From Picosynechococcus sp. PCC 7117 (GTDB lineage Bacteria > Cyanobacteriota > Cyanobacteriia > Cyanobacteriales > MRBY01), in NCBI RefSeq assembly GCF_001693275.1, contig NZ_CP016477.1:992001-1056000 (forward strand): DNA of 64,000 nucleotides, read 5' to 3'. Within the stretch, counting starts at the first letter, position 1, and each line of letters begins with the position of its first letter. The notes under the pieces were generated by a model. That model was given only the letters and a program-made list of their open reading frames with translations, ran no database searches and was not told the DNA's origin. Made by a program: the position numbers and the translations under genes. Positions 16,331 through 25,230 of the stretch are shown here, piece by piece.

Positions 16331-17254
16331 ATGACGGAACAAATTTTAGAATTAAAAGTTGAAGGAGCAGGGGAACGCCTGGATCAATGGTTGGCCCAGC
16401 AGCTCCCAGAGTTGTCACGGTCTCGTTTGCAGCGATTGATTGAGCAGGGTCAAGTACAGCTCAATGAAGCCCCTTGCCAATCGAAAAAGACAAAATTAAA
16501 AGTGGGCGATCGCCTAATACTCAAGATTCCCGCCCCAGCAACTATGGCCCTCGCACCGGAGGCAATGGATCTGGATATTTTGTTTGAAGATGAGCATTTT
16601 TTAATCGTTAATAAACCCGCTGGGATGGTGGTACATCCGGCACCGGGAAACTATACCGGCACCCTTGTTCATGGGTTGTTGGCCCACTGCGGCGAGAATT
16701 TAGCAGGTATTGGTGGGGTACAGCGGCCTGGCATTGTGCACCGCTTGGATAAGGACACGACCGGGGCGATCGCCATTGCGAAAACAGACCAGGCCCACCA
16801 ACATCTACAGGCGCAGATCAAGGCCAAAACTGCGAGACGGGAATACATGGGGATTGTCTACGGTTGCCCCCGGAATGATGCTGGGACAATTGAGGCGCCG
16901 ATTGCGCGGCATAAAGGCGATCGCAAAAAAATGGCCGTCGATGAAACGGGGCGTCCGGCAGTGACCCACTGGGAGATCATGGAACGCCTGGGCAATTATT
17001 CTTTGCTCTATTACAAGCTCGAAACGGGCCGCACCCACCAAATCCGCGTTCACAGTGCCCACATGGGCAATCCGATCATCGGGGACCCCCTCTATACCAG
17101 CAATAAATTCGATAAGGTCAAACTCACGGGCCAAGCACTCCACGCCCGCAAGCTCATGGTCGAACATCCAGTGACCGGAGAAACGATCGAGGCGATCGCC
17201 CCTTTACCTACAGAATTTGAAAAGTTACTGCGATTTTTGCGCCAGCGGGCCTAG
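16331..17254 (+). CDS. RluD-family 23S rRNA pseudouridine synthase
   Basis: Large-subunit rRNA pseudouridine synthase of the RluA/RluD group, 307 residues. An N-terminal S4 RNA-binding domain (ERLDQWLAQQLPELSRSRLQ) precedes the catalytic domain with GIVHRLDKDTTG, whose Asp is the nucleophile, then GRTHQIRVH and IIGDPLY. The exact target uridines cannot be told from sequence. The stop overlaps that of the convergent collagen-like gene by four bases. Confidence 0.9.
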   Translation: MTEQILELKVEGAGERLDQWLAQQLPELSRSRLQRLIEQGQVQLNEAPCQSKKTKLKVGDRLILKIPAPATMALAPEAMDLDILFEDEHFLIVNKPAGMVVHPAPGNYTGTLVHGLLAHCGENLAGIGGVQRPGIVHRLDKDTTGAIAIAKTDQAHQHLQAQIKAKTARREYMGIVYGCPRNDAGTIEAPIARHKGDRKKMAVDETGRPAVTHWEIMERLGNYSLLYYKLETGRTHQIRVHSAHMGNPIIGDPLYTSNKFDKVKLTGQALHARKLMVEHPVTGETIEAIAPLPTEFEKLLRFLRQRA

Positions 17255-18663
17255 GGCAGTGCCCCCCGCCACTGGATTACCTGTTGAGTCTGATGTTCAC
17301 CGAAACGCCTCTCCGCCGTAATTTCTAAATCCACCACCATTCCGCTCTGGAAATACTCTTGAGCCAAGGGCAGATCGCCTAAGCGTAGTTGATATTCTGA
17401 ACCAATTTGCTGCACTGCTTCTGGGGAGAGGCGTCCGCTATAACGGGTTTCGTAGGTGTAGCCCTCTCGAAATTGGGGTGTGGGATTACGGGTGCGGTAG
17501 GTGACCATAAATTGCGTGTCTAACCAATCGCTCCGAGGCCCTAGATCGAGGATGCTAAAAGTTAGATCGCGGTCAGTTCCCCGCAAACCCTGGCGGATCA
17601 ATTGGGTAGCTTCATCTGCCTGCATTGCCCGGTTAACTTGGATTTGGAAACCGTTACCCTGGGGTTGAACGGTGTAATCTAACCAAGCTTCCCCCGATTG
17701 TTGTACTGCTAACTGCCGACTGTCTCCCAGGCTGAGGCTAAATTGTGCTTGGTTAAAAGCAGTTTGGGGTTGATCAGCGGCCCAAGCCAGTTGAATCGGC
17801 GCAGTGAAAAGTTCGACATATTCGCGATAGGTATCGGGGACTTGGGAACCGCTGGCTAATTTGCTGCGTAATCCTGTAGGCGATCGCCAAATATTTTTGC
17901 TGAGGGTCGTCCCCGATCGTTCCAATGCGGCGAGAGAAATGGTGGTGTTGGGATTGTCGGTGGGGATAGCGGTTAAATTTTGAATGAGGGTCACAGTCCC
18001 AGGAGTTCCATTTCTGCCAGGGTTACCATCGGGAGCGTTACGACCATTGTGACCGGGGGTGCAGTAATAGCGTTGTTGAGTACATCGCTCTTCTTTTCTG
18101 GGTTTTTCTTCGGGATTATTGCTGGCCACTTCCTCCAGATGGCAAGTTTCGACGACCCAAGAGGAATAGGGACAACCACAGCCTTGACCCCCATAACCGC
18201 CTCGCCCCTCTAGTCCACCTTCACCACCACGATTGTCGATAAAAATGAGGCTGAGATCCTGGGGCTGTTGGTAGAAAATTGTCACATCCGCGCCATCGCC
18301 CCCATTACCACCGTTGCCACCTCGACCACCATCGCCCCCATCAGCGCCCCGAATATTGTGTTCTGGTCGTCGCCAATAGCTAGAACAGCGGGCTGCTTCG
18401 CCATATTCGCCGTCGGTGCCTGGTTCGCCGTCGCCACCTTTGAGGTCAAACGTGCGGGCGGTGCCATCAATAATGATTGTTTGCGCTTGGGCATTGCTGC
18501 CGGAGCGACCATCGCGACCAGGGCGACCATCGCGCCCCGTCTGTCCCCACGAGAAGGAGTTGTTGTAATAGGGATAATGCTGGGAAACCCCAGGGGCGAT
18601 CGCCCCGAGCATAATTACCCCGACCACAACGCTGCCAATTCCCACCCAATGGTGCCACTTCAT
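17251..18663 (-). CDS. secreted collagen-like Gly-rich protein
   Basis: A 470-residue protein of unknown function. An N-terminal hydrophobic segment (VGIGSVVVGVIMLGAIA) should export or anchor it. Residues about 35-225 are rich in Gly-X-X triplets (TGRDGRPGRDGRSG, GGDGGRGGNGGNGGDG, GRNAPDGNPGRNGTPG), broken by Cys-containing stretches (ARCSSYW, CGCPYSS, ERCTQQRYYCTPG) that may be disulfide linked. Residues 240-470 form a non-repetitive C-terminal domain. The triplets resemble bacterial collagen-like domains, though long uninterrupted GXY runs are absent. A surface or extracellular role is inferred. Confidence 0.68.
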   Translation of the reverse strand: MKWHHWVGIGSVVVGVIMLGAIAPGVSQHYPYYNNSFSWGQTGRDGRPGRDGRSGSNAQAQTIIIDGTARTFDLKGGDGEPGTDGEYGEAARCSSYWRRPEHNIRGADGGDGGRGGNGGNGGDGADVTIFYQQPQDLSLIFIDNRGGEGGLEGRGGYGGQGCGCPYSSWVVETCHLEEVASNNPEEKPRKEERCTQQRYYCTPGHNGRNAPDGNPGRNGTPGTVTLIQNLTAIPTDNPNTTISLAALERSGTTLSKNIWRSPTGLRSKLASGSQVPDTYREYVELFTAPIQLAWAADQPQTAFNQAQFSLSLGDSRQLAVQQSGEAWLDYTVQPQGNGFQIQVNRAMQADEATQLIRQGLRGTDRDLTFSILDLGPRSDWLDTQFMVTYRTRNPTPQFREGYTYETRYSGRLSPEAVQQIGSEYQLRLGDLPLAQEYFQSGMVVDLEITAERRFGEHQTQQVIQWRGALP

Positions 18664-18744
18664 TGCGTTTGACCCCTGATTTATCCGCCCGGATATTACT
18701 CCGTGACGGGCTAGAAACCTCTCTAGTTTCTAGTGTACCCAGCA

Positions 18745-18884
18745 GTCCACCAGGCAAAAGGCGATCGCCTAATTTTGGACGGATTTTTCTGCGCAACACT
18801 CCACATTCAACTGTTTATACAGAAATTTTCCATGTAAAAGTAATAGAGAGGACGCTATACGGAAATCATCCGCATAATACATAG
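18745..18884. repeat. cassette-array long repeat, copy A
   Basis: Starts GTCCACCAGGC, then GGCGATCGCCTAATTTTGGAC, and ends CGCATAATACATAG. From 18760 to 18884 it aligns with 19995-20116 (copy B), by eye about 70-75 percent identical. Relative to B it lacks about 39 bases after CCAGGC. The match to B ends exactly at CATAG, after which unique sequence leading into the 313-residue gene begins. Confidence 0.8.
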
Positions 18885-18895
18885 TTAAAGTAATC

Positions 18896-19837
18896 ATGTA
18901 CACCTTCACAGACGAGAGTGCCCAATTTGGGCAGGAGCTTTCTCATCAATTTGCGATTGAGTCAGCTGGTGCTCGCTATTCGGAGGTTCAGCAGTTTCGG
19001 GCCCTGATGTCAGCGTTTGGAAAAATTTCTCCCCGGTTTTTGGTAGAGGAATATCATGGGCAGAAACACCAGGTCTATTTCAATGGCAGTGGGTCTTGGG
19101 GACGGAGCCCTGCTCGGTGTGAATTATGCGATGTGGTTATTCTTGCATACTCGTACACATCAGGATTTCGCGCTCGGGTCACATTTCTTCAGGCTAAGCG
19201 CTCTACAGAATTTCATGCGGGAGTATGCAGGAGCTTCCCCAGTGAGGCTGACGAACTGTCGTTTAAAGCCAATCTAGAACAATGGGATTTGCTCTCTAGG
19301 AGGCCGGAAGTGCTTCCTGTTCCTCCTCTCATCGCCCAACCTCACATTCTTCAGGCAGCGATTCTTCCATCCGTTGGTTCATTCGGAGTGTTTCATCGAG
19401 GCAGCTGCAAGGATGTTGGTTTCTTTTATGCGTCAGCGGATCAGCTTCAGCCCGTGGCGCAAGGAAAAACTAAGTTTGGCCGTCTAAAGCTACCGGCCGC
19501 TTCACCATTAACACGGACAGTTGGTGGTTACAAAGAAAGGCTCTACTGCTGTTGCCTTCCATTGTTCGGTGCCGCTCTATACGAGTTGGAAATTGGCACT
19601 CCCATTGAACCTGCTTCTGATCACATCGCTAGAGGTCCAGGAAAATCCTCGTTGTGGGCTTGGGTTCGGGGGTTGCTACGATTTTATGTAGAACACAGCA
19701 TACAGAGGTCCGATACATTACAGGAAATATTGAATGGGCTGGTCGACGATGAGCAAGAAGAAACCGAATTCTTTGAATCAGCGCCCTCGCTATTGGTGGT
19801 GAAATCGAATGTGGACGCTGGTGAAAATGGCTTCTGA
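18896..19837 (+). CDS. cassette-borne protein, possible PD-(D/E)XK nuclease
   Basis: A 313-residue protein I do not recognise. Codon use differs from neighbours and there is no HIP1 site, so it looks acquired. Residues 75-101 read CELCDVVILAYSYTSG then RVTFLQAKRS; the spacing of D79 and Q99-A-K101 resembles the D...(E/Q)xK core of PD-(D/E)XK nucleases, with a possible helix-1 Glu at E22. This is inference only. A C-terminal helical part contains WAWVRGLLRFYVEH and an acidic end. It is bounded by repeat A upstream and an attC-like sequence that overlaps its stop. Confidence 0.6.
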   Translation: MYTFTDESAQFGQELSHQFAIESAGARYSEVQQFRALMSAFGKISPRFLVEEYHGQKHQVYFNGSGSWGRSPARCELCDVVILAYSYTSGFRARVTFLQAKRSTEFHAGVCRSFPSEADELSFKANLEQWDLLSRRPEVLPVPPLIAQPHILQAAILPSVGSFGVFHRGSCKDVGFFYASADQLQPVAQGKTKFGRLKLPAASPLTRTVGGYKERLYCCCLPLFGAALYELEIGTPIEPASDHIARGPGKSSLWAWVRGLLRFYVEHSIQRSDTLQEILNGLVDDEQEETEFFESAPSLLVVKSNVDAGENGF

Positions 19838-19877
19838 CAAATTGTCGCCTCAAACACCGCTGAACTCTGACGTTAAA
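19833..19877 (+). repeat. candidate degenerate attC site
   Basis: Begins TCTGACAAATTG at the stop codon of the 313-residue gene and ends GCTGAACTCTGACGTTAAA. The order (R''-like box at the stop, TCAA(A)C, GCTxAACTC, G|TTRRR) resembles integron attC sites, but pairing between arms is imperfect and the terminal loop is very short. Weaker than the candidate at 22141. Confidence 0.35.
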
Positions 19878-19926
19878 ATTTCATGTGGAGATCTACTTTT
19901 CTGAAAAGATCACATTATTTGACAAG

Positions 19927-20116
19927 AAAAATTAGGGCGTTGTCGCTGTCCACCAGGCGATAGGTGATCGTATCATCCTGCGTTGGTAAGTTTTGGCGAT
20001 CGCCTAATTTTGGACAGATTTTTTTTGCATAACACCCCATATTTAGCGGAGGAAAAAGTTTCTATACAAAAGTAACAGAGGGGACATCATACAGAAATCA
20101 TTCGCATAATACATAG
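19927..20116. repeat. cassette-array long repeat, copy B (most complete)
   Basis: Begins with the 33-nt block 19927-19959 (AAAAATTAGGGCGTTGTCG onward to CCAGGCG), identical but for one base to 22229-22261 and identical to 20624-20656. Continues through GGCGATCGCCTAATTTTGGAC and ends CGCATAATACATAG at 20116. The part up to about 19990 also aligns, with a short insertion, to the 3' end of the subtilase gene. Unique sequence of the GFA cassette starts at 20117. Confidence 0.82.
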
Positions 20117-20156
20117 TCTATGTGTGTGTCACCTAGAGGTCATAGAAAAAAGAAAG

Positions 20157-20558
20157 ATGACTGATTACTTTGGTTCTTGTCTGTGTGGAACCGCGAAATT
20201 TCAAGTACAAGGGGAGTTCGACAGCTTTTACCTGTGTCATTGTCAGCATTGCCAAAAAGATACAGGGTCGGCTCACTCGGCAAATTTATTTTCGCGGTCT
20301 GCTAAATTGATTTGGCTGGCTGGTGTGGATGCAGTGACTACATTTACGCTTCCAGGTACTCGCCACAACAAAAGCTTTTGTAAATTCTGTGGTTCAGCTT
20401 TGCCAAGCACTCAGATCGCTGATTTTCTTGTTATTCCCGCAGGGTGTTTGGACACAGAAGTTTCTATGTCGCCAACTGCCCACATCTTTACATCGAGCAA
20501 AGCTGCTTGGGACAGAGCGTTAGGGGAACTGCCAAAATTCAAAGGGTTGCCAAGTTGA
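20157..20558 (+). CDS. GFA/CENP-V zinc-domain protein
   Basis: A 133-residue member of the GFA (glutathione-dependent formaldehyde-activating-like) fold, a beta protein holding structural and glutathione-proximal zinc ions. The Cys motifs are all present: CLCG near residue 8, CHCQHCQKDTGSA near 28-38, and CKFCGSALP near 78. Many family members have no proven enzymatic role. Start MTDYFG chosen; a longer GTG reading from 20124 is possible. Such proteins are frequent integron cassette cargo. It lies between repeats B and C, has no HIP1, and appears acquired. Confidence 0.82.
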   Translation: MTDYFGSCLCGTAKFQVQGEFDSFYLCHCQHCQKDTGSAHSANLFSRSAKLIWLAGVDAVTTFTLPGTRHNKSFCKFCGSALPSTQIADFLVIPAGCLDTEVSMSPTAHIFTSSKAAWDRALGELPKFKGLPS

Positions 20559-20623
20559 GCGACCATCACATCACAAGTCAAAGCACGCTAACTTCACCAT
20601 CCTGAAATACAGTATTTGACGAA

Positions 20624-20713
20624 AAAAATTAGGGCGTTGTCGCTGTCCACCAGGCGCTTATTGGAATTTTTGTTGCAAAACGCAACTTTATGGTGCACAA
20701 TGCAATCATCTAG
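20624..20713. repeat. cassette-array long repeat, copy C (diverged)
   Basis: Starts with the 33-nt block at 20624-20656. Continues as TTGGAATTTTTGTTGCAAAAC, recognisably related to the TTGGACAGATTTTTTTTGC part of copy B, and ends CATCTAG just before unique sequence TTAGGAAAATAG leading into the antitoxin gene. A small hairpin GTTGC/GCAAC lies inside (20672-20686). Confidence 0.7.
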
Positions 20714-20726
20714 TTAGGAAAATAGT

Positions 20727-20945
20727 ATGTCTGTTGCTGTTCGTATCTCTAACTCTTTGGCGACAAAGGCTAAAATTCGTTCAAAAGCCATGCATCGTTC
20801 AGTTGCTGGTCAAATCGAGTATTGGGCGAAAATGGGGGAAATTCTCGAAGATAACCCTGATTTGTCTTTCGCTTTTGTACAAGAAATCCTCATCGGTAAA
20901 GAAGAGGCTGAGAACTCTGAATTAACACCTTATGAGTTCCAATAA
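20727..20945 (+). CDS. ParD-like antitoxin
   Basis: A 72-residue protein of the ParD-like ribbon-helix-helix antitoxin family: MSVAVRISNSLATKAK (beta strand and helix), HRSVAGQIEYWAKMG (second helix), then the toxin-binding tail ending LTPYEFQ. It should bind and neutralise the RelE/ParE-type toxin and repress its own promoter. The toxin that would follow immediately is now 0.9 kb away because of an IS insertion, so the antitoxin may be an orphan. AT-rich upstream sequence contains TGGTGCACAATGCA, a possible operator. Confidence 0.82.
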   Translation: MSVAVRISNSLATKAKIRSKAMHRSVAGQIEYWAKMGEILEDNPDLSFAFVQEILIGKEEAENSELTPYEFQ

Positions 20946-20960
20946 GAGGCCGTTTATAAA

Positions 20961-21844
20961 GTAAATCTTTAGGAAACTAGCCGACGTAGCATAAGACGAC
21001 TCATGGAAGCGTAAATCCCTGCCTCCGATACCTCTGGTAATTGCTCATAGTCCTTACTAAGGCGACGATACCAATTCAACCAACCGAATGTACGCTCAAC
21101 AATCCAACGTTTTGGTAACACCACAAATGCCTTACTGTTTCTGCTAATCACTTCCACCTTGGCTTGAACCATTAACCACAGACTTAAGGCAAAACGCCCT
21201 CCCCGATATCCGGCATCGACCCACATCAACCGAAATCGTCTCAATAGTTCCTGCTGCTGTTCCCTGAGTTCCATCACTGCCGCCAGGGTAAGGCTACGCT
21301 CTGAGCCATTCCCTTCAGAGACCAGGACTTTGTAGAGTAGCCCTAAACTGTCGACTAGCAGGTTTCTCCGTCTTCCTTTGACCTGCTTACCACCATCGAA
21401 GCCATAGACTTCGCCCTTTTTTCTGTCGTTTTAACCGATTGGCTATCAGCAATCAAGACGCTAGGTTCTGCGCTTTTCCCCACTGATTGGCGACAGCGGG
21501 TACGCAGAGCATGGTTGATTTCTTCCCAGACTCCTTGCCTCTGCCATTTGCGATAGTAGTAGTAGACTGTGGAAGAGGGAGGAAAGTCCTTGGGCAGATA
21601 GGCCCATTGACAACCCGTTTTGAGGAGATAGAAAATTCCATTGCAGACCTGTCGCATATCAGTGGTACGTGGATGACCGCCGGACTTTGGAGCAGGAATT
21701 AAGGGTTCTAGTAAAGCCCATTCTGCATCGCTTAAGTCACTGGGATAGGAAGCTTGAGACATTGGTGCTAGTTTCCTGTGTCGTTATGCTTATGTTTGAC
21801 CTTAACGACTTCACGGGCAACAATCCTATTCTCTTTATCTTTAC
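20961..21844 (-). mobile_element. IS5-family insertion sequence
   Basis: About 884 bases carrying one transposase in two frames. It is flanked by the 8-mer TTTATAAA at 20953-20960 and 21845-21852. The ends read GTAAATCTTTAGG (left) and, on the other strand, GTAAAGATAAAGAG (right). Because TTTATAAA is itself a palindrome, it may be either a target duplication or part of 13-bp inverted repeats with a shorter duplication. The insertion splits a toxin-antitoxin operon. Confidence 0.85.
20969..21762 (-). CDS. IS5-family transposase, two frames joined by -1 frameshift
   Basis: Frame A runs 21762-21355 (MSQASYPSDLSDAEW...; first catalytic Asp in IADSQSVKTTE). Frame B runs to 20969 and supplies WVDAGYRGG (second Asp) and ERTFGWLNWYRRLSKDYE (Glu). 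The frames meet at six A residues followed by G on the coding strand (21417-21422), where a -1 slip restores KTTEKKGEVYGFDGGK, the expected family sequence. This layout fits programmed frameshifting as known in several IS5 subgroups, so the element may be active. A simple mutation is the alternative. Confidence 0.85.
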
Positions 21845-21851
21845 TTTATAA

Positions 21852-22145
21852 ATACCCTCTAAAAAGAAAATCGAAGTATATCAAACTCCCTCCTTTACCA
21901 AGAGAAAAAAGAAGCTTCGTAAAAATGAAATTGCAGACCTAGATAATGCTGTTAAAGCGATTATTGAAAATCCAGAAATTGGTGTTCAAAAAAAAGGCGA
22001 TTTAGCTGATGTGTGGGTCTACAAATTTAAAATGGCAAAACAGGAAAATCTGCTTGCTTATAAGTGGGATGCGGAAAAAAGAATTCTTATTGCACTTGGC
22101 GTCCACGAAAATTTTTATCGTGATCTGAAAAAATCAAACTTCTAA
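21852..22145 (+). pseudogene. RelE/ParE-family toxin lacking a start codon
   Basis: The open frame ends KKSNF and carries the toxin family pattern: KIEVYQTPSFTKRKKKL, NPEIGVQKKGDLADVWVYKF, LLAYKW, ALGVHENFYRDL. The expected start position (before KKKIEVYQ) is TCT, and no ATG, GTG or TTG occurs before the conserved core. Restoring the pre-insertion sequence across the IS does not create one, because TAA lies in frame just upstream. The partner antitoxin is at 20727. Either the toxin is dead, or it used an unusual start. The frame itself is intact, suggesting recent loss. Confidence 0.75.
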
Positions 22146-22201
22146 CAACGAGTTCGAGCGCACAATCCCAAAGCTCCCTCTGCTCAACGTCGATGTTGAA
22201 A
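22141..22201 (+). repeat. candidate integron attC site
   Basis: Overlaps the toxin stop: TTCTAACAACGAGTTCGAGC ... GCTCAACGTCGATGTTGAAA. The left arm GTTCGAGC pairs with the right arm GCTCAAC if one C is left unpaired, the extrahelical base typical of attC sites. R''-like TCTAAC and R'-like GTTGAA frame the arms. Length of about 61 nt is normal for attC. No integrase gene is in the window. Confidence 0.5.
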
Positions 22202-22228
22202 ATTTGATTGGGCGATCGCCACATGAGA

Positions 22229-22261
22229 AAAAATTAAGGCGTTGTCGCTGTCCACCAGGCG
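22229..22261. repeat. 33-nt repeat block, copy D, inside the subtilase 3' end
   Basis: AAAAATTAAGGCGTTGTCGC to CCAGGCG spans the last codons and stop of the subtilase gene (minus strand). It matches 20624-20656 and 19927-19959 with one difference, all three in the same orientation. Confidence 0.9.
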
Positions 22262-23847
22262 ATCGCATAATCCTGGGTTGCTTGATTGGCTTGCTCGGCA
22301 TAGACAACCCGCACTTTATACTTTCCCGTTTGTGATACGGGGCAAAAAATATGTTCAACGCTATCAACGGAGCTGGTAGAGCGACATACCGCCTCGCCTA
22401 AATCATCAGCATCCGCTGGCAAGAGATAGAGATTGAGATCATTCAGGCCGCGATCCGTAAAACTTTCTCCCACATCATATAGACCATTATTGTTCTGGTC
22501 ATTCAAGTCCACCCAACGATCCCAAGTGAGGGTCAGGGCCACAAAAGAATCCCGTTGTAGGGGCATGGCGAAATGATAGTCCTGAAACTCTTGGGCGCTA
22601 ATTTTGTCGTAATTCCATCCCCGACTTGGCACAGGCGCTGTCGTTGACCGTTGTCCGGCGGCCAATTGTTGGTAAGCGCGCTGGGCGTTGAGTTGACCGG
22701 TACCCATTTCGATATCCAGGGGAATGTCAGGATTTTTGTAAGCGTCCCCTTCGAGCCAGGTGCGATTTTGTTTACTGAGAATCGTGCGGGTCATCTCCAG
22801 AGATTTCCCGTCCCCAGTATCAGCAATTTTATCGGCACTGTTGAGCAATACCGCTTTCATCACTTCATGGCGACGGGCAGCGAGGCTCCATTGGTCGGCC
22901 TGGGTTTTCAGTTGGCGATCGCCAAATTCCTGTAACAAGGCAACGGTGCCAGTGATGTGGGGGGCCGCGAAACTCGTACCGCTCACCCGGTCGATTTTAT
23001 TAAAGGTGGTGATCAGATTGAGCTGGCTACCAGGGGCACTGAGGCTAATGGCCCGGCGAGAACCCGTATTAATTTCCTGACGAATCAAACGACTGCCACT
23101 GCCCACAGGTAGGGAACTGAGATTAGCAAAATCAATCTTATTAAACACCTCCCCTTGGAACTGCGTGGTGTAGGCGGTAGTAATGCCGTTGTAATGATCC
23201 GTCGGAATCGGGATGCCACCAGTGCCTTGGTTTCCGGCTACCACATGGAGGACATCATAAACCCGCGCTGTCCAGTCTAAACATTGGGTCAAAAGGGCAT
23301 TGCCATCTAAGGCTGGATTCGGCCGGGGATCGCGACTGAGGGATTCTCCAAAACTGAAATTGATCGCCCGCACGTCGCCACCATTTTGTCGGGCAATGTG
23401 TTGGGTCGCGAGACATTCCTCCGGTTGGGCCGAATCGTCAGTGGAACCGATCGCCGAGGAAAACAGACGGGCTTCCGGGGCGACTCCCAGTTGGCGTTTA
23501 TCTTGTCCGACCATAATTCCCGCCACCATACCTGCGTGGTCATCGACATGATCATCGGGGGTCGCCTTTTCGTTGAGGAAAAACAGTTGGGAAAGTCCCA
23601 GTTGGGGTTGCCAGACGGCCCGTTTATCGAGGCCAAATTTACCAGGACGGCCAATTTCTACTTGGCCAATGGCGATTTTGCGACCTAGTAGATCATAGGG
23701 TTCACTGTGGAGGGTGGTGGCTTGGATCCCGTTGTCGCCGATAGAGGTATTAAAGTCCTGGGCGATCGCCCCTTTTATGCCCCCGAAAACCGTCAAACTA
23801 AGGGTAAATATCCCCAAAATCGACCGTTTTTGCCTAAATCTTCCCAT
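22234..23847 (-). CDS. secreted S8-family subtilisin-like protease
   Basis: A 537-residue S8-fold protein with a signal peptide (FTLSLTVFGGIKGAIA, cleavage near residue 29). Catalytic-type elements: DDHAGMVAGI (His104), VVAGNQG (oxyanion Asn206) and SGTSFAAPH (Ser292). The strand expected to carry the catalytic Asp reads IAIGQVEIGRPG, with Glu64 at or near that position, so activity needs proof. The C-terminal 130 residues form a beta domain with a Ca-site-like DQNNNGLYDVGES. It probably acts in the periplasm or outside. The 3' end contains the 33-nt block repeated in the adjacent island. Confidence 0.82.
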   Translation of the reverse strand: MGRFRQKRSILGIFTLSLTVFGGIKGAIAQDFNTSIGDNGIQATTLHSEPYDLLGRKIAIGQVEIGRPGKFGLDKRAVWQPQLGLSQLFFLNEKATPDDHVDDHAGMVAGIMVGQDKRQLGVAPEARLFSSAIGSTDDSAQPEECLATQHIARQNGGDVRAINFSFGESLSRDPRPNPALDGNALLTQCLDWTARVYDVLHVVAGNQGTGGIPIPTDHYNGITTAYTTQFQGEVFNKIDFANLSSLPVGSGSRLIRQEINTGSRRAISLSAPGSQLNLITTFNKIDRVSGTSFAAPHITGTVALLQEFGDRQLKTQADQWSLAARRHEVMKAVLLNSADKIADTGDGKSLEMTRTILSKQNRTWLEGDAYKNPDIPLDIEMGTGQLNAQRAYQQLAAGQRSTTAPVPSRGWNYDKISAQEFQDYHFAMPLQRDSFVALTLTWDRWVDLNDQNNNGLYDVGESFTDRGLNDLNLYLLPADADDLGEAVCRSTSSVDSVEHIFCPVSQTGKYKVRVVYAEQANQATQDYAIAWWTATTP

Positions 23848-23875
23848 GATCTTCCGCTATTAACCCAAAACTGAA

Positions 23876-25230
23876 TAGTGAAGTACCCGACGCTGACCTG
23901 ACGGTACAGTGCGGGCTTCCTACCCAACAGACAGCGCCACAGTAGATTTCTTTCGTCCTCTACTATCACGTCTTACATCTGGGCGATAGGCGTTATCCCT
24001 GCTTCCCAAGGAAATAATTCGCAGTCCTTCATCGCGAATGTTCTTAGCCCCATTGACATCTCTGTCGTGTTTAGCGCCACAGTTAGAACATTGCCAATGT
24101 CTTACATCAAGCGGAAGGCTGCTTACTTGATATAGACAGTCATTACAGGTTTTAGAACTAGGAAAGAAGCGATCTACTTCTATGTAAACCTTCCCTTCCC
24201 ACTCAGCCTTGTAATTAAGCATGGTACAAAAACTACCCCATCCTACTTGGCTGATCGCCTTGGATAGAGAGCGGTTCTTTACCATGCCACGTATATTAAG
24301 ACTTTCTACGCAGATGACTTGGTTTTCGTCGACTATCCTGCGCGATAGCTTGTGGTGAAAGTCTTCCCTGCACCTTGAGATTTTGCTATGTATCTTGGCT
24401 ATCTGTTTACGAGCTTTATTCCGATTATTGCTATCCTTAACCCGTCTTGACAAACGCCGTTGCTTACACTTGAGGTTTCTTTCGTGCCTTACCAGCCAGC
24501 GCGGGTTGTCAAACTTGGAGCCATCACTGGTAATCGCAAAATGTGTTAGTCCGAGATCAATGCCGACTGCTTTCCCCTTGACCGATTGTTCGGGGTTATC
24601 TTTTCCATCGTCAGTCAAGATAGAAGCATAGTATTGACCGTAGCAGTTCATTGATACCGTGACAGTTTTGATCTTTCCCTCAATTGGTCTGTGTAGCTTA
24701 GCTGCTACTTCCCCTAGCATTGGGAGCTTAATTGCGCTTCCTAGCATCTTAACATTTTGAGGAAAATGTATCGACTGTTGATGATGCTTTGACTTGAATC
24801 TTGGGTACTGAGCTCTTCCTTCAAAGAAGTTATTGAAAGCGACACCAAGATTAAGACAAACCTGCTGTAGACACTGAGAATAAGTCAGCTTAAGCCACTC
24901 ATACTCTTTCTTTAGTTGCGGTATCTGCTTCTTAACGGCATAGCCCGATAAGCCTTTACCCGTCTCTTTATAGGTCTCGTTCATCAAGCTAAGACAATAG
25001 TTCCACAGCCAACGGCAATTACCAAACGCCTGTGATAGCCTCTGTTTTTGCTGCTCGTCTGGATAAAGTCTTACCTTAATAGCCCGTAACATTAGAGTAA
25101 AAAGCTTTTGTTATAAATTATTGTAGTCTATTAATTTAGTCTTATACGTGCTCCCTATCGGTCGCTGCTTCTCATCCCGACTCCGAATTAGGGATTACGG
25201 AGCGATGCTTCCCCGCGATTAGCTAAACAA
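23876..25230 (-). mobile_element. IS200/IS605-type element with TnpB only
   Basis: One tnpB gene with no tnpA. After the tnpB stop the minus strand reads GAAGCCCGCACTGTACC, then a stem GTACC/GGTAC, ending in TTCAC at about 23876, which resembles the structured right end and guide-RNA scaffold of such elements. The left limit is uncertain; structured sequence extends to about 25230. It lies between the subtilase and pgi. Confidence 0.55.
23920..25092 (-). CDS. tnpB: RNA-guided endonuclease TnpB
   Basis: A 390-residue TnpB. An N-terminal helix-turn-helix domain (VRLYPDEQQKQRLSQAFG) is followed by an OB-like region, then the split RuvC nuclease: D179 in AVGIDLGL, E263 in CVESLNI, and the last Asp in HDRDVNGAKN (343/345). 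A four-Cys zinc finger is formed by C316, C319, C335 and C338. All active-site residues are present, so nuclease function is plausible; TnpB uses a transcript from the element's right end as guide. It lacks HIP1 and has AT-rich codon use, fitting a mobile gene. Confidence 0.93.
   Translation of the reverse strand: MLRAIKVRLYPDEQQKQRLSQAFGNCRWLWNYCLSLMNETYKETGKGLSGYAVKKQIPQLKKEYEWLKLTYSQCLQQVCLNLGVAFNNFFEGRAQYPRFKSKHHQQSIHFPQNVKMLGSAIKLPMLGEVAAKLHRPIEGKIKTVTVSMNCYGQYYASILTDDGKDNPEQSVKGKAVGIDLGLTHFAITSDGSKFDNPRWLVRHERNLKCKQRRLSRRVKDSNNRNKARKQIAKIHSKISRCREDFHHKLSRRIVDENQVICVESLNIRGMVKNRSLSKAISQVGWGSFCTMLNYKAEWEGKVYIEVDRFFPSSKTCNDCLYQVSSLPLDVRHWQCSNCGAKHDRDVNGAKNIRDEGLRIISLGSRDNAYRPDVRRDSRGRKKSTVALSVG

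Follow-up and report, generated by a model that had tools for sequence, protein, structure and literature searches.

Integrons have been described in cyanobacteria (in the available text of PMC2426708, PMC9668308 and PMC8618304), and cassettes that protect against phages are known from integrons as well (Darracq et al. 2025 and Getz et al., both as reported in the available part of PMC12409362). According to that same part of the source, phage defence was conferred by at least 16 out of 179 cassettes of V. cholerae (88 expressed) and by nine of the 57 tested cassettes of V. parahaemolyticus. Delta-attI gene cassettes are known from mobile integrons (PMC12901181, from an excerpt), and for Treponema one attI per integron and the loss of an integrase have been described (PMC3607928, also from an excerpt). 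A literature search that left most subscription journals outside its scope returned nothing that combined an integron with Picosynechococcus, and among the matches listed, each represented by part of its text, there was nothing that dealt with attI sites scattered in cyanobacterial genomes and accompanied by defence genes. Here we analyse a 64,000 nucleotide stretch of the 3.43 Mb genome of Picosynechococcus sp. PCC 7117 (C1:992001-1056000, hereafter the window), in which one open reading frame leads to an unlisted protein family that has a testable active site and is tied to integrons in several phyla. A 25.6-kb contig of this genome, compared over its first 8,000 bases, matches a plasmid of Picosynechococcus sp. 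PCC 7003 at 81.7% across 41% of the query.

Organization of the locus

According to the list of ORFs in the window, an ORF with an ATG start runs uninterrupted for 313 codons on the plus strand from 18896 to 19837. Adjoining it on its 5' side is an attI-like repeat of ~125 bp (18760-18886, plus strand) that shares 85% identity with the attI side next to an integron integrase gene (intI) preserved intact in the sister genome G001; a second copy, 78% identical to the G001 attI and with GTC in place of GTT, lies at 19995-20117 (plus strand). In the first copy the crossover G is position 18884 and the TT is 18885-18886, which puts the left end of the unit carrying the ORF at the integron crossover G^TT. 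With its start codon 12 nt past the crossover G, the ORF is probably without a promoter of its own. A promoter scan of 18680-20200 gave two sites, compared with 2.3 expected, and thus showed no promoter, and Rfam returned nothing at gathering score in 17200-24000.

Behind the ORF and its 3' tail (19838-19911, plus strand) is a fragment of a subtilase 3' end with some adjoining bases, identified by repeat comparison at 19912-19959 and continuing by eye to about 19990, where it joins the second attI-like copy. There follow a second cargo, a gene for a GFA-domain protein (PF04828; 20124-20558, plus strand), whose like is also found behind an attI-like site of the sister genome G002, a second copy of the subtilase 3' end (20609-20656, again by repeat comparison), a ParD-like antitoxin gene (PF11903; 20727-20945, plus strand), an IS4/5-family transposase in two ORF pieces on the minus strand (20969-21762), the remainder of a ParE-like toxin gene (21860-22145, plus strand), and lastly the subtilase gene. 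A toxin-antitoxin neighbour had been pointed out in the first-pass annotation, and it is indeed there, with the ParE-like partner severed by the IS; in G002 the IS is not present at this place and the toxin gene (PF15781) and the pair are intact. The order in G002 is attI, GFA gene, fragment, intact toxin-antitoxin pair (L033) and subtilase, while that in G001 is simply attI, one gene and subtilase. We infer that the tandem arrangement in the window stems from separate acquisitions at one locus that were joined by unequal recombination.

attI-like sites and integrase traces in the genus

In G001 the repeat is placed divergently beside the intact intI (TIGR02249, 469.9 bits against a cut-off of 265). 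A search with the G001 attI side as query identified 12 places in five of the six genus genomes (five in G001, three in G000, two in G002, and one each in G003 and G005). In this 160 nt query the G of G^TT is position 130, and each of the 11 non-self matches breaks off between positions 131 and 134; an alignment of ten attI-like copies shows the same sharp end of homology. Remnants of intI accompany five of the 12 places: those in G005, G001:2147 and G001:536 (protein and DNA match), and those at G001:2575 and G000:679, where shorter DNA matches extend into the start of the gene; none were found beside the two copies in the window. Beyond the 12 places, G001 has one more diverged attI-like copy with integrase-gene sequence. 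The first-pass annotation had considered the ORF part of an acquired cassette, and these matches bear that out and give it an origin: the unit is integron-derived, its attI-like repeat matching the intI side in G001 with homology ending at G^TT.

The genome that holds the window has no intact integron integrase, the best match scoring 38.4 bits against the cut-off of 265; integrases above the cut-off are present in one of the six genus genomes and in 15 of the 291 sampled cyanobacterial genomes. In a wider search, matches beyond the genus to the second window copy were only 20-36 bases long. At G001:C1:534500-537500 (L039) we observed two more integrase-gene fragments with attI-like sequence, ~0.8 kb apart; the intact integrase gene of that genome is some 3-4 kb away. 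By eye, the attI-like region (L034:1505-1664; 18760-18886 in the window) seemingly comprises three imperfect units of 40-42 nt; self-matches of the G001 attI are 38-39% at periods of 40-42, the next best being 36% at 51. These units are possibly integrase binding repeats.

A family without a name

A scan of genome contigs identified seven relatives of the 313 residue protein (34-53% identity) in Polaromonas, Alteromonas, Ferrimonas, Psychrobacter, Hydrogenovibrio, Vibrio xiamenensis and a Syntrophobacterales MAG, a range that spans Proteobacteria plus the one Syntrophobacterales MAG; the Ferrimonas relative (L006) carries an in-frame stop. One strong additional member (L070, in G618) came from 394 genomes of the order of the Vibrio relative, and two more (L078, partial, and L079) from 369 genomes of the class of the Polaromonas relative, and the whole-genome searches also yielded a distant candidate (L071, protein P0002; E-value 9e-4). 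Weak matches in G786, G479 and G846 (E-values 0.004-0.008) were left out of the family. Among 386 cyanobacterial genomes the family is present in only one, that of the window, and the ORF was therefore acquired. No relatives were identified in viral contigs, among 50,697 phage records searched with the ORF, or among 72,556 plasmid records searched with the ORF and two relatives.

The 313 residue protein has no match in NCBIfam, the PADLOC models or PHROGs, no significant match to the sequences of PDB structures, and in Pfam only a herpesvirus family (E-value 0.23, 11.6 bits against a cut-off of 25). The other members did little better: NCBIfam returned nothing for them, six members searched against PHROGs touched three families, each by one member (best E-value 0.013), and two of the ten aligned members touched the PADLOC model PDC-M54A (best E-value 0.021; the Alteromonas relative, L005, 0.032).

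Our alignment (A4) holds ten of the 12 members found, at 19-52% identity to the window protein, the lowest being L079 (25%) and P0002 (19%); left out were L006, with its in-frame stop, and L070, both of which by eye retain E30, D79, Q99 and K101. Seven of the 313 positions are invariant in all ten rows (C75, E76, D79, R94, Q99, A100 and K101), and E30, E51 and E52 are each kept in nine. With P0002 dropped, the invariant positions rise to 18, with E30, D79, Q99 and K101 among them; the agreement of P0002 at the motif is partly built in, because this protein was found via a profile stretch that holds the motif. At its locus (G577:C1:3114184), P0002 keeps CE-x2-D...R...QAK at 19% identity, and by eye the stretch also contains a long ORF similar to an OLD/AAA ATPase. 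No such motif was seen by eye in the ORFs around the G846 match. Taken as a whole, the ORF belongs to a new, nameless family carried by integrons, whose members are probably nucleases.

attC-like sites and cassette status

Our attC scan used the familiar R-box patterns and is a rough one, as its controls (four stretches, of which two overlap) went as low as z -2.57. Excluded from the counts were candidates within coding sequence (e.g., one at z -3.97 inside the family gene itself in L007), chance pairs of perfect boxes in L102 and L078, and the attI itself in L098 (z -3.72). On this rough scan, with controls to z -2.57, attC-like sites adjoin the gene in five of nine relative loci (Alteromonas L005, Ferrimonas L006, Vibrio L009, Syntrophobacterales L010, and L079); none were found in L004, L007, L008 and L078. 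The upstream folds of L004, L005, L007, L008 and L009 were unremarkable beside those of shuffled sequences (z -1.36 to 1.33). The Vibrio relative has a full integron integrase gene 2-3 kb away; by eye, the genes beyond this integrase look like ribosomal protein genes. Of the genomes of the seven first relatives, three have an integrase above the cut-off, and in Alteromonas the integrase and the family gene are on separate contigs.

Within the genus, G001 has an attC-like site (L096) with a perfect box pair, GCCTAAC...GTTAGGT, 7/7 paired but with a fold z of only -1.69, that starts 5 nt past the end of the first small ORF following an attI copy, and another (L098; z -3.35) that follows two genes next to the intact integrase; given a rough scan with controls to z -2.57, these sites agree with an integron. 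In the window, the 3' tail of the unit has no recognisable attC: 19838-19911 contained no candidate among the best four of eight, and we rejected it as a decayed attC on its bottom-strand fold (z 0.32). The window repeats were likewise rejected as attC sites, being attI-like copies and subtilase fragments instead. As there is no attC here and no intact integrase in the genome, the window unit is therefore a cassette remnant, and it is probably immobile; the relatives with attC-like sites look like the mobile form of the gene.

Evidence for a putative PD-(D/E)XK-type nuclease

The PD-(D/E)XK active site combines a D with a (D/E/Q)xK, to which the helix before them usually adds a Glu, on a core fold of alpha-beta-beta-beta-alpha-beta; a helix Glu, a strand D and then QxK is the layout of the QxK kind of these nucleases. 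The first-pass annotation had proposed such a core from CELCDVVIL (residues 75-83) and FLQAKRS (residues 97-103), and the ORF, both peptides, D79 and K101 are all where it placed them, with 19 residues between D79 and Q99 and K101 completing the QxK. However, the D...QxK motif by itself is no better than chance: D-x(8-29)-[EQ]xK occurs in 20 of the 36 window ORFs of at least 200 residues and the tight form D-x(17-21)-QxK in seven of the 36, of which this ORF should be one. The motif of the ORF rises above chance because it is conserved across the family, D79, Q99 and K101 being present in 10/10 rows of the alignment and the preceding Glu, E30, in 9/10; a second D...[EQ]xK in the same protein (D173, Q189 and K191; D173...QGK) is not conserved across A4.

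Two AlphaFold models were made, one of the whole protein from an alignment of six rows (pLDDT 38.7) and one of the N-terminal 194 residues of the Vibrio relative from nine rows (mean pLDDT 50.2). In the second, at its low pLDDT of 50.2, the equivalent of D79 lies within a strand (68-80), the QxK is just past another (87-92), and the helix bearing E30 precedes both, an order compatible with the nuclease core. Foldseek searches with both low-confidence models against the PDB, and with the second against viral structures, gave nothing at E-values of 0.001 or less. VIA-align of the second model (pLDDT 50.2) gave 116 chains with Z of at least 2 among 987 aligned, the best being a fructose-1,6-bisphosphatase (Z 6.9), and a chain of the restriction enzyme DrdV scored Z 3.2 (rmsd 4.5, 109 aligned), tied with unrelated folds. 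We took no fold from the top scores (fructose-1,6-bisphosphatase and thioesterases), as their Z of 5.0-6.9 is in the uninformative range of the tool. The proposed core thus stands on its residues and on a compatible, low-confidence order of helices and strands, while profile searches gave it no match and the structure prediction and fold search that had been suggested produced no convincing structural one. In our judgement the 313 residue protein is likely to be a PD-(D/E)XK-type nuclease.

Cargo of the attI-like sites and a role in defence

The 12 attI-like places amount to 11 distinct cargoes, as the GFA gene occurs twice. Ten proteins from seven cargoes were scanned with models, along with the ORF and the GFA gene; of the remaining cargoes, one was compared with Pfam only (no match at E-values of 0.01 or less) and one, a cupin-like ORF, was judged by eye. 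As a raw count, four of the 11 cargoes are defence-related by model. These are a complete Gabija system in G001 (L099, C1:2147000-2152500; GajA 585 bits and GajB 839 bits), whose gene pair starts ~0.2 kb past an attI-like site that is accompanied by remnants of intI; a type II restriction-modification system with an HNH restriction enzyme and a C5 methyltransferase; an NNH2-NACHT-HEAT protein (Pfam; PADLOC candidate PDC-S60, E-value 3.8e-9); and a pPIWI-associated nuclease (PF18165, E-value 1e-29) which in G001 occupies the ORF's own locus. The Gabija cargo, at ~3.7 kb, is large for an integron, and an attC-like candidate (z -3.66) lies between its attI and GajA. The cargoes that weigh against this are the GFA-domain gene, a YaaC-like gene, a radical-SAM protein (PADLOC candidate PDC-M51A, E-value 1.7e-11) together with a trypsin-like protein, a 515 residue protein whose matches are all weak, and unassigned ORFs.

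That the ORF might serve in defence had been suggested from its neighbourhood, and it is the neighbourhood that speaks for it, with defence systems at attI-like sites of the genus and the pPIWI-associated nuclease at the same locus; the PADLOC models, on the other hand, do not match the ORF, and its nearest other cargo is the GFA-domain gene, which counts against defence. Defence is the likeliest role of the ORF by association.

Alternative explanations

The repeat beside the ORF could be a dispersed promoter or other small repeat rather than an attI, with its genes having arrived by ordinary or illegitimate recombination. HIP1-type GGCGATCGCC sequences, an example of recombination points, adjoin the repeat; the tandem of repeat, ORF, subtilase-end fragment, repeat, GFA gene and subtilase-end fragment is best explained by unequal recombination; and the window is without an attC. 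We nevertheless hold this explanation to be quite improbable, as the repeat also occurs beside an intact intI and, at five places, beside remnants of intI, the homology ends at G^TT in every non-self match, and attC-like sites follow the cargo at two places in G001 (the one with perfect boxes at z -1.69 and the other at z -3.35). It also has to contend with one orthologous site at which G000 (L102/L037, G000:C1:679537) and G002 (L103/L038, G002:C1:698529) share both flanks (91.5% and 92.8%) and an attI remnant but differ in cargo, which is ~1.84 kb with the 515 residue protein in the former and 2.44 kb with the type II restriction-modification pair in the latter.

Even with an integron origin for the unit, its protein need not be a nuclease, and the C-E-x2-D...R...QAK cluster could serve some other enzyme or binding fold. 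The family has nothing above cut-off in Pfam or NCBIfam, the ORF matches neither PADLOC nor PHROGs, the sequences of solved structures give no significant match, the models are of low confidence with top structural scores for a fructose-1,6-bisphosphatase and thioesterases in the uninformative range (Z 5.0-6.9), and the equally invariant C75 and R94 have no standard role in a PD-(D/E)XK active site. Still, few polar residues in the family are as well conserved as E30, D79, Q99 and K101, and these come in the order and with the hydrophobic strand context expected of the nuclease core, so that we regard another fold as rather unlikely. Much the same can be said of the idea that the protein is a nuclease or DNA-binding enzyme outside defence, acting in cassette mobility or repair or simply carried as selfish cargo without benefit to the host. 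The functions of most integron cassettes are unknown, and most of those from V. cholerae and V. parahaemolyticus gave no phage defence (in the available part of PMC12409362); yet defence genes accompany the sister sites, the same locus included, and we doubt that a role apart from defence is the right one.

Proposed origin and function

Our preferred reading, to which we lean by a modest degree, is that the ORF is a stranded former integron cassette gene encoding a metal-dependent PD-(D/E)XK-type nuclease, most likely a single-gene defence. In the scheme that we infer, an integron integrase would in the past have inserted the gene at the attI-like site, and the integrase would later have been lost, leaving the cassette gene stranded there with transcription presumably from a promoter within the attI region. 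The protein would have the nuclease fold, depend on metal, and use E30, D79, Q99 and K101 in catalysis; in its putative defence role it may cut foreign nucleic acid, or the DNA of its own cell once triggered.

More tentatively, we speculate that a once-active integron left attI platforms behind in this genus that are now hot spots of anti-phage genes, and that the ORF founds a new family of single-gene nuclease defences travelling by integron. If this were true, these integrase-poor docking sites would take in even a whole two-gene Gabija system, and the family would cross phyla. Leftover attI sites in cyanobacteria are in any event places to seek defence genes. Should the protein prove to be anti-phage, it adds a compact single-gene system to those described, and an attI pattern that holds up would reveal the traces of an integron after the death of its integrase.

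Comparison with known systems

The QxK variants of the PD-(D/E)XK superfamily include those of Mrr type and of Cap4/DUF4297 type. The E...D...QxK residues are common to these variants and the window family, and the predicted order of secondary structure is compatible; the family differs in that it has no profile or structural match and in its own invariant residues, C75 and R94.

At the level of the locus, there is a likeness to the phage-defence integron cassettes (PMC12409362, in the part available), which are likewise small cargoes of a single ORF at the attachment site of an integron; the Vibrio relative near an integrase and the Alteromonas and Ferrimonas relatives with attC-like sites resemble them too, whereas the window unit has neither attC nor integrase, its host is a cyanobacterium and its putative defence role is drawn from context. 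The delta-attI cassettes, as described in the excerpt of PMC12901181, share with the window an attI-like sequence on both sides of the ORF; the window locus, in contrast, is chromosomal and cyanobacterial, without an integrase, and has a piece of a host gene interposed. Finally, Treponema phagedenis has lost its integrase and kept its cassettes (PMC3607928, from an excerpt), as in the window, but what is left over there is attC, whereas the window locus has no attC and the genus instead keeps attI, in several copies per genome.
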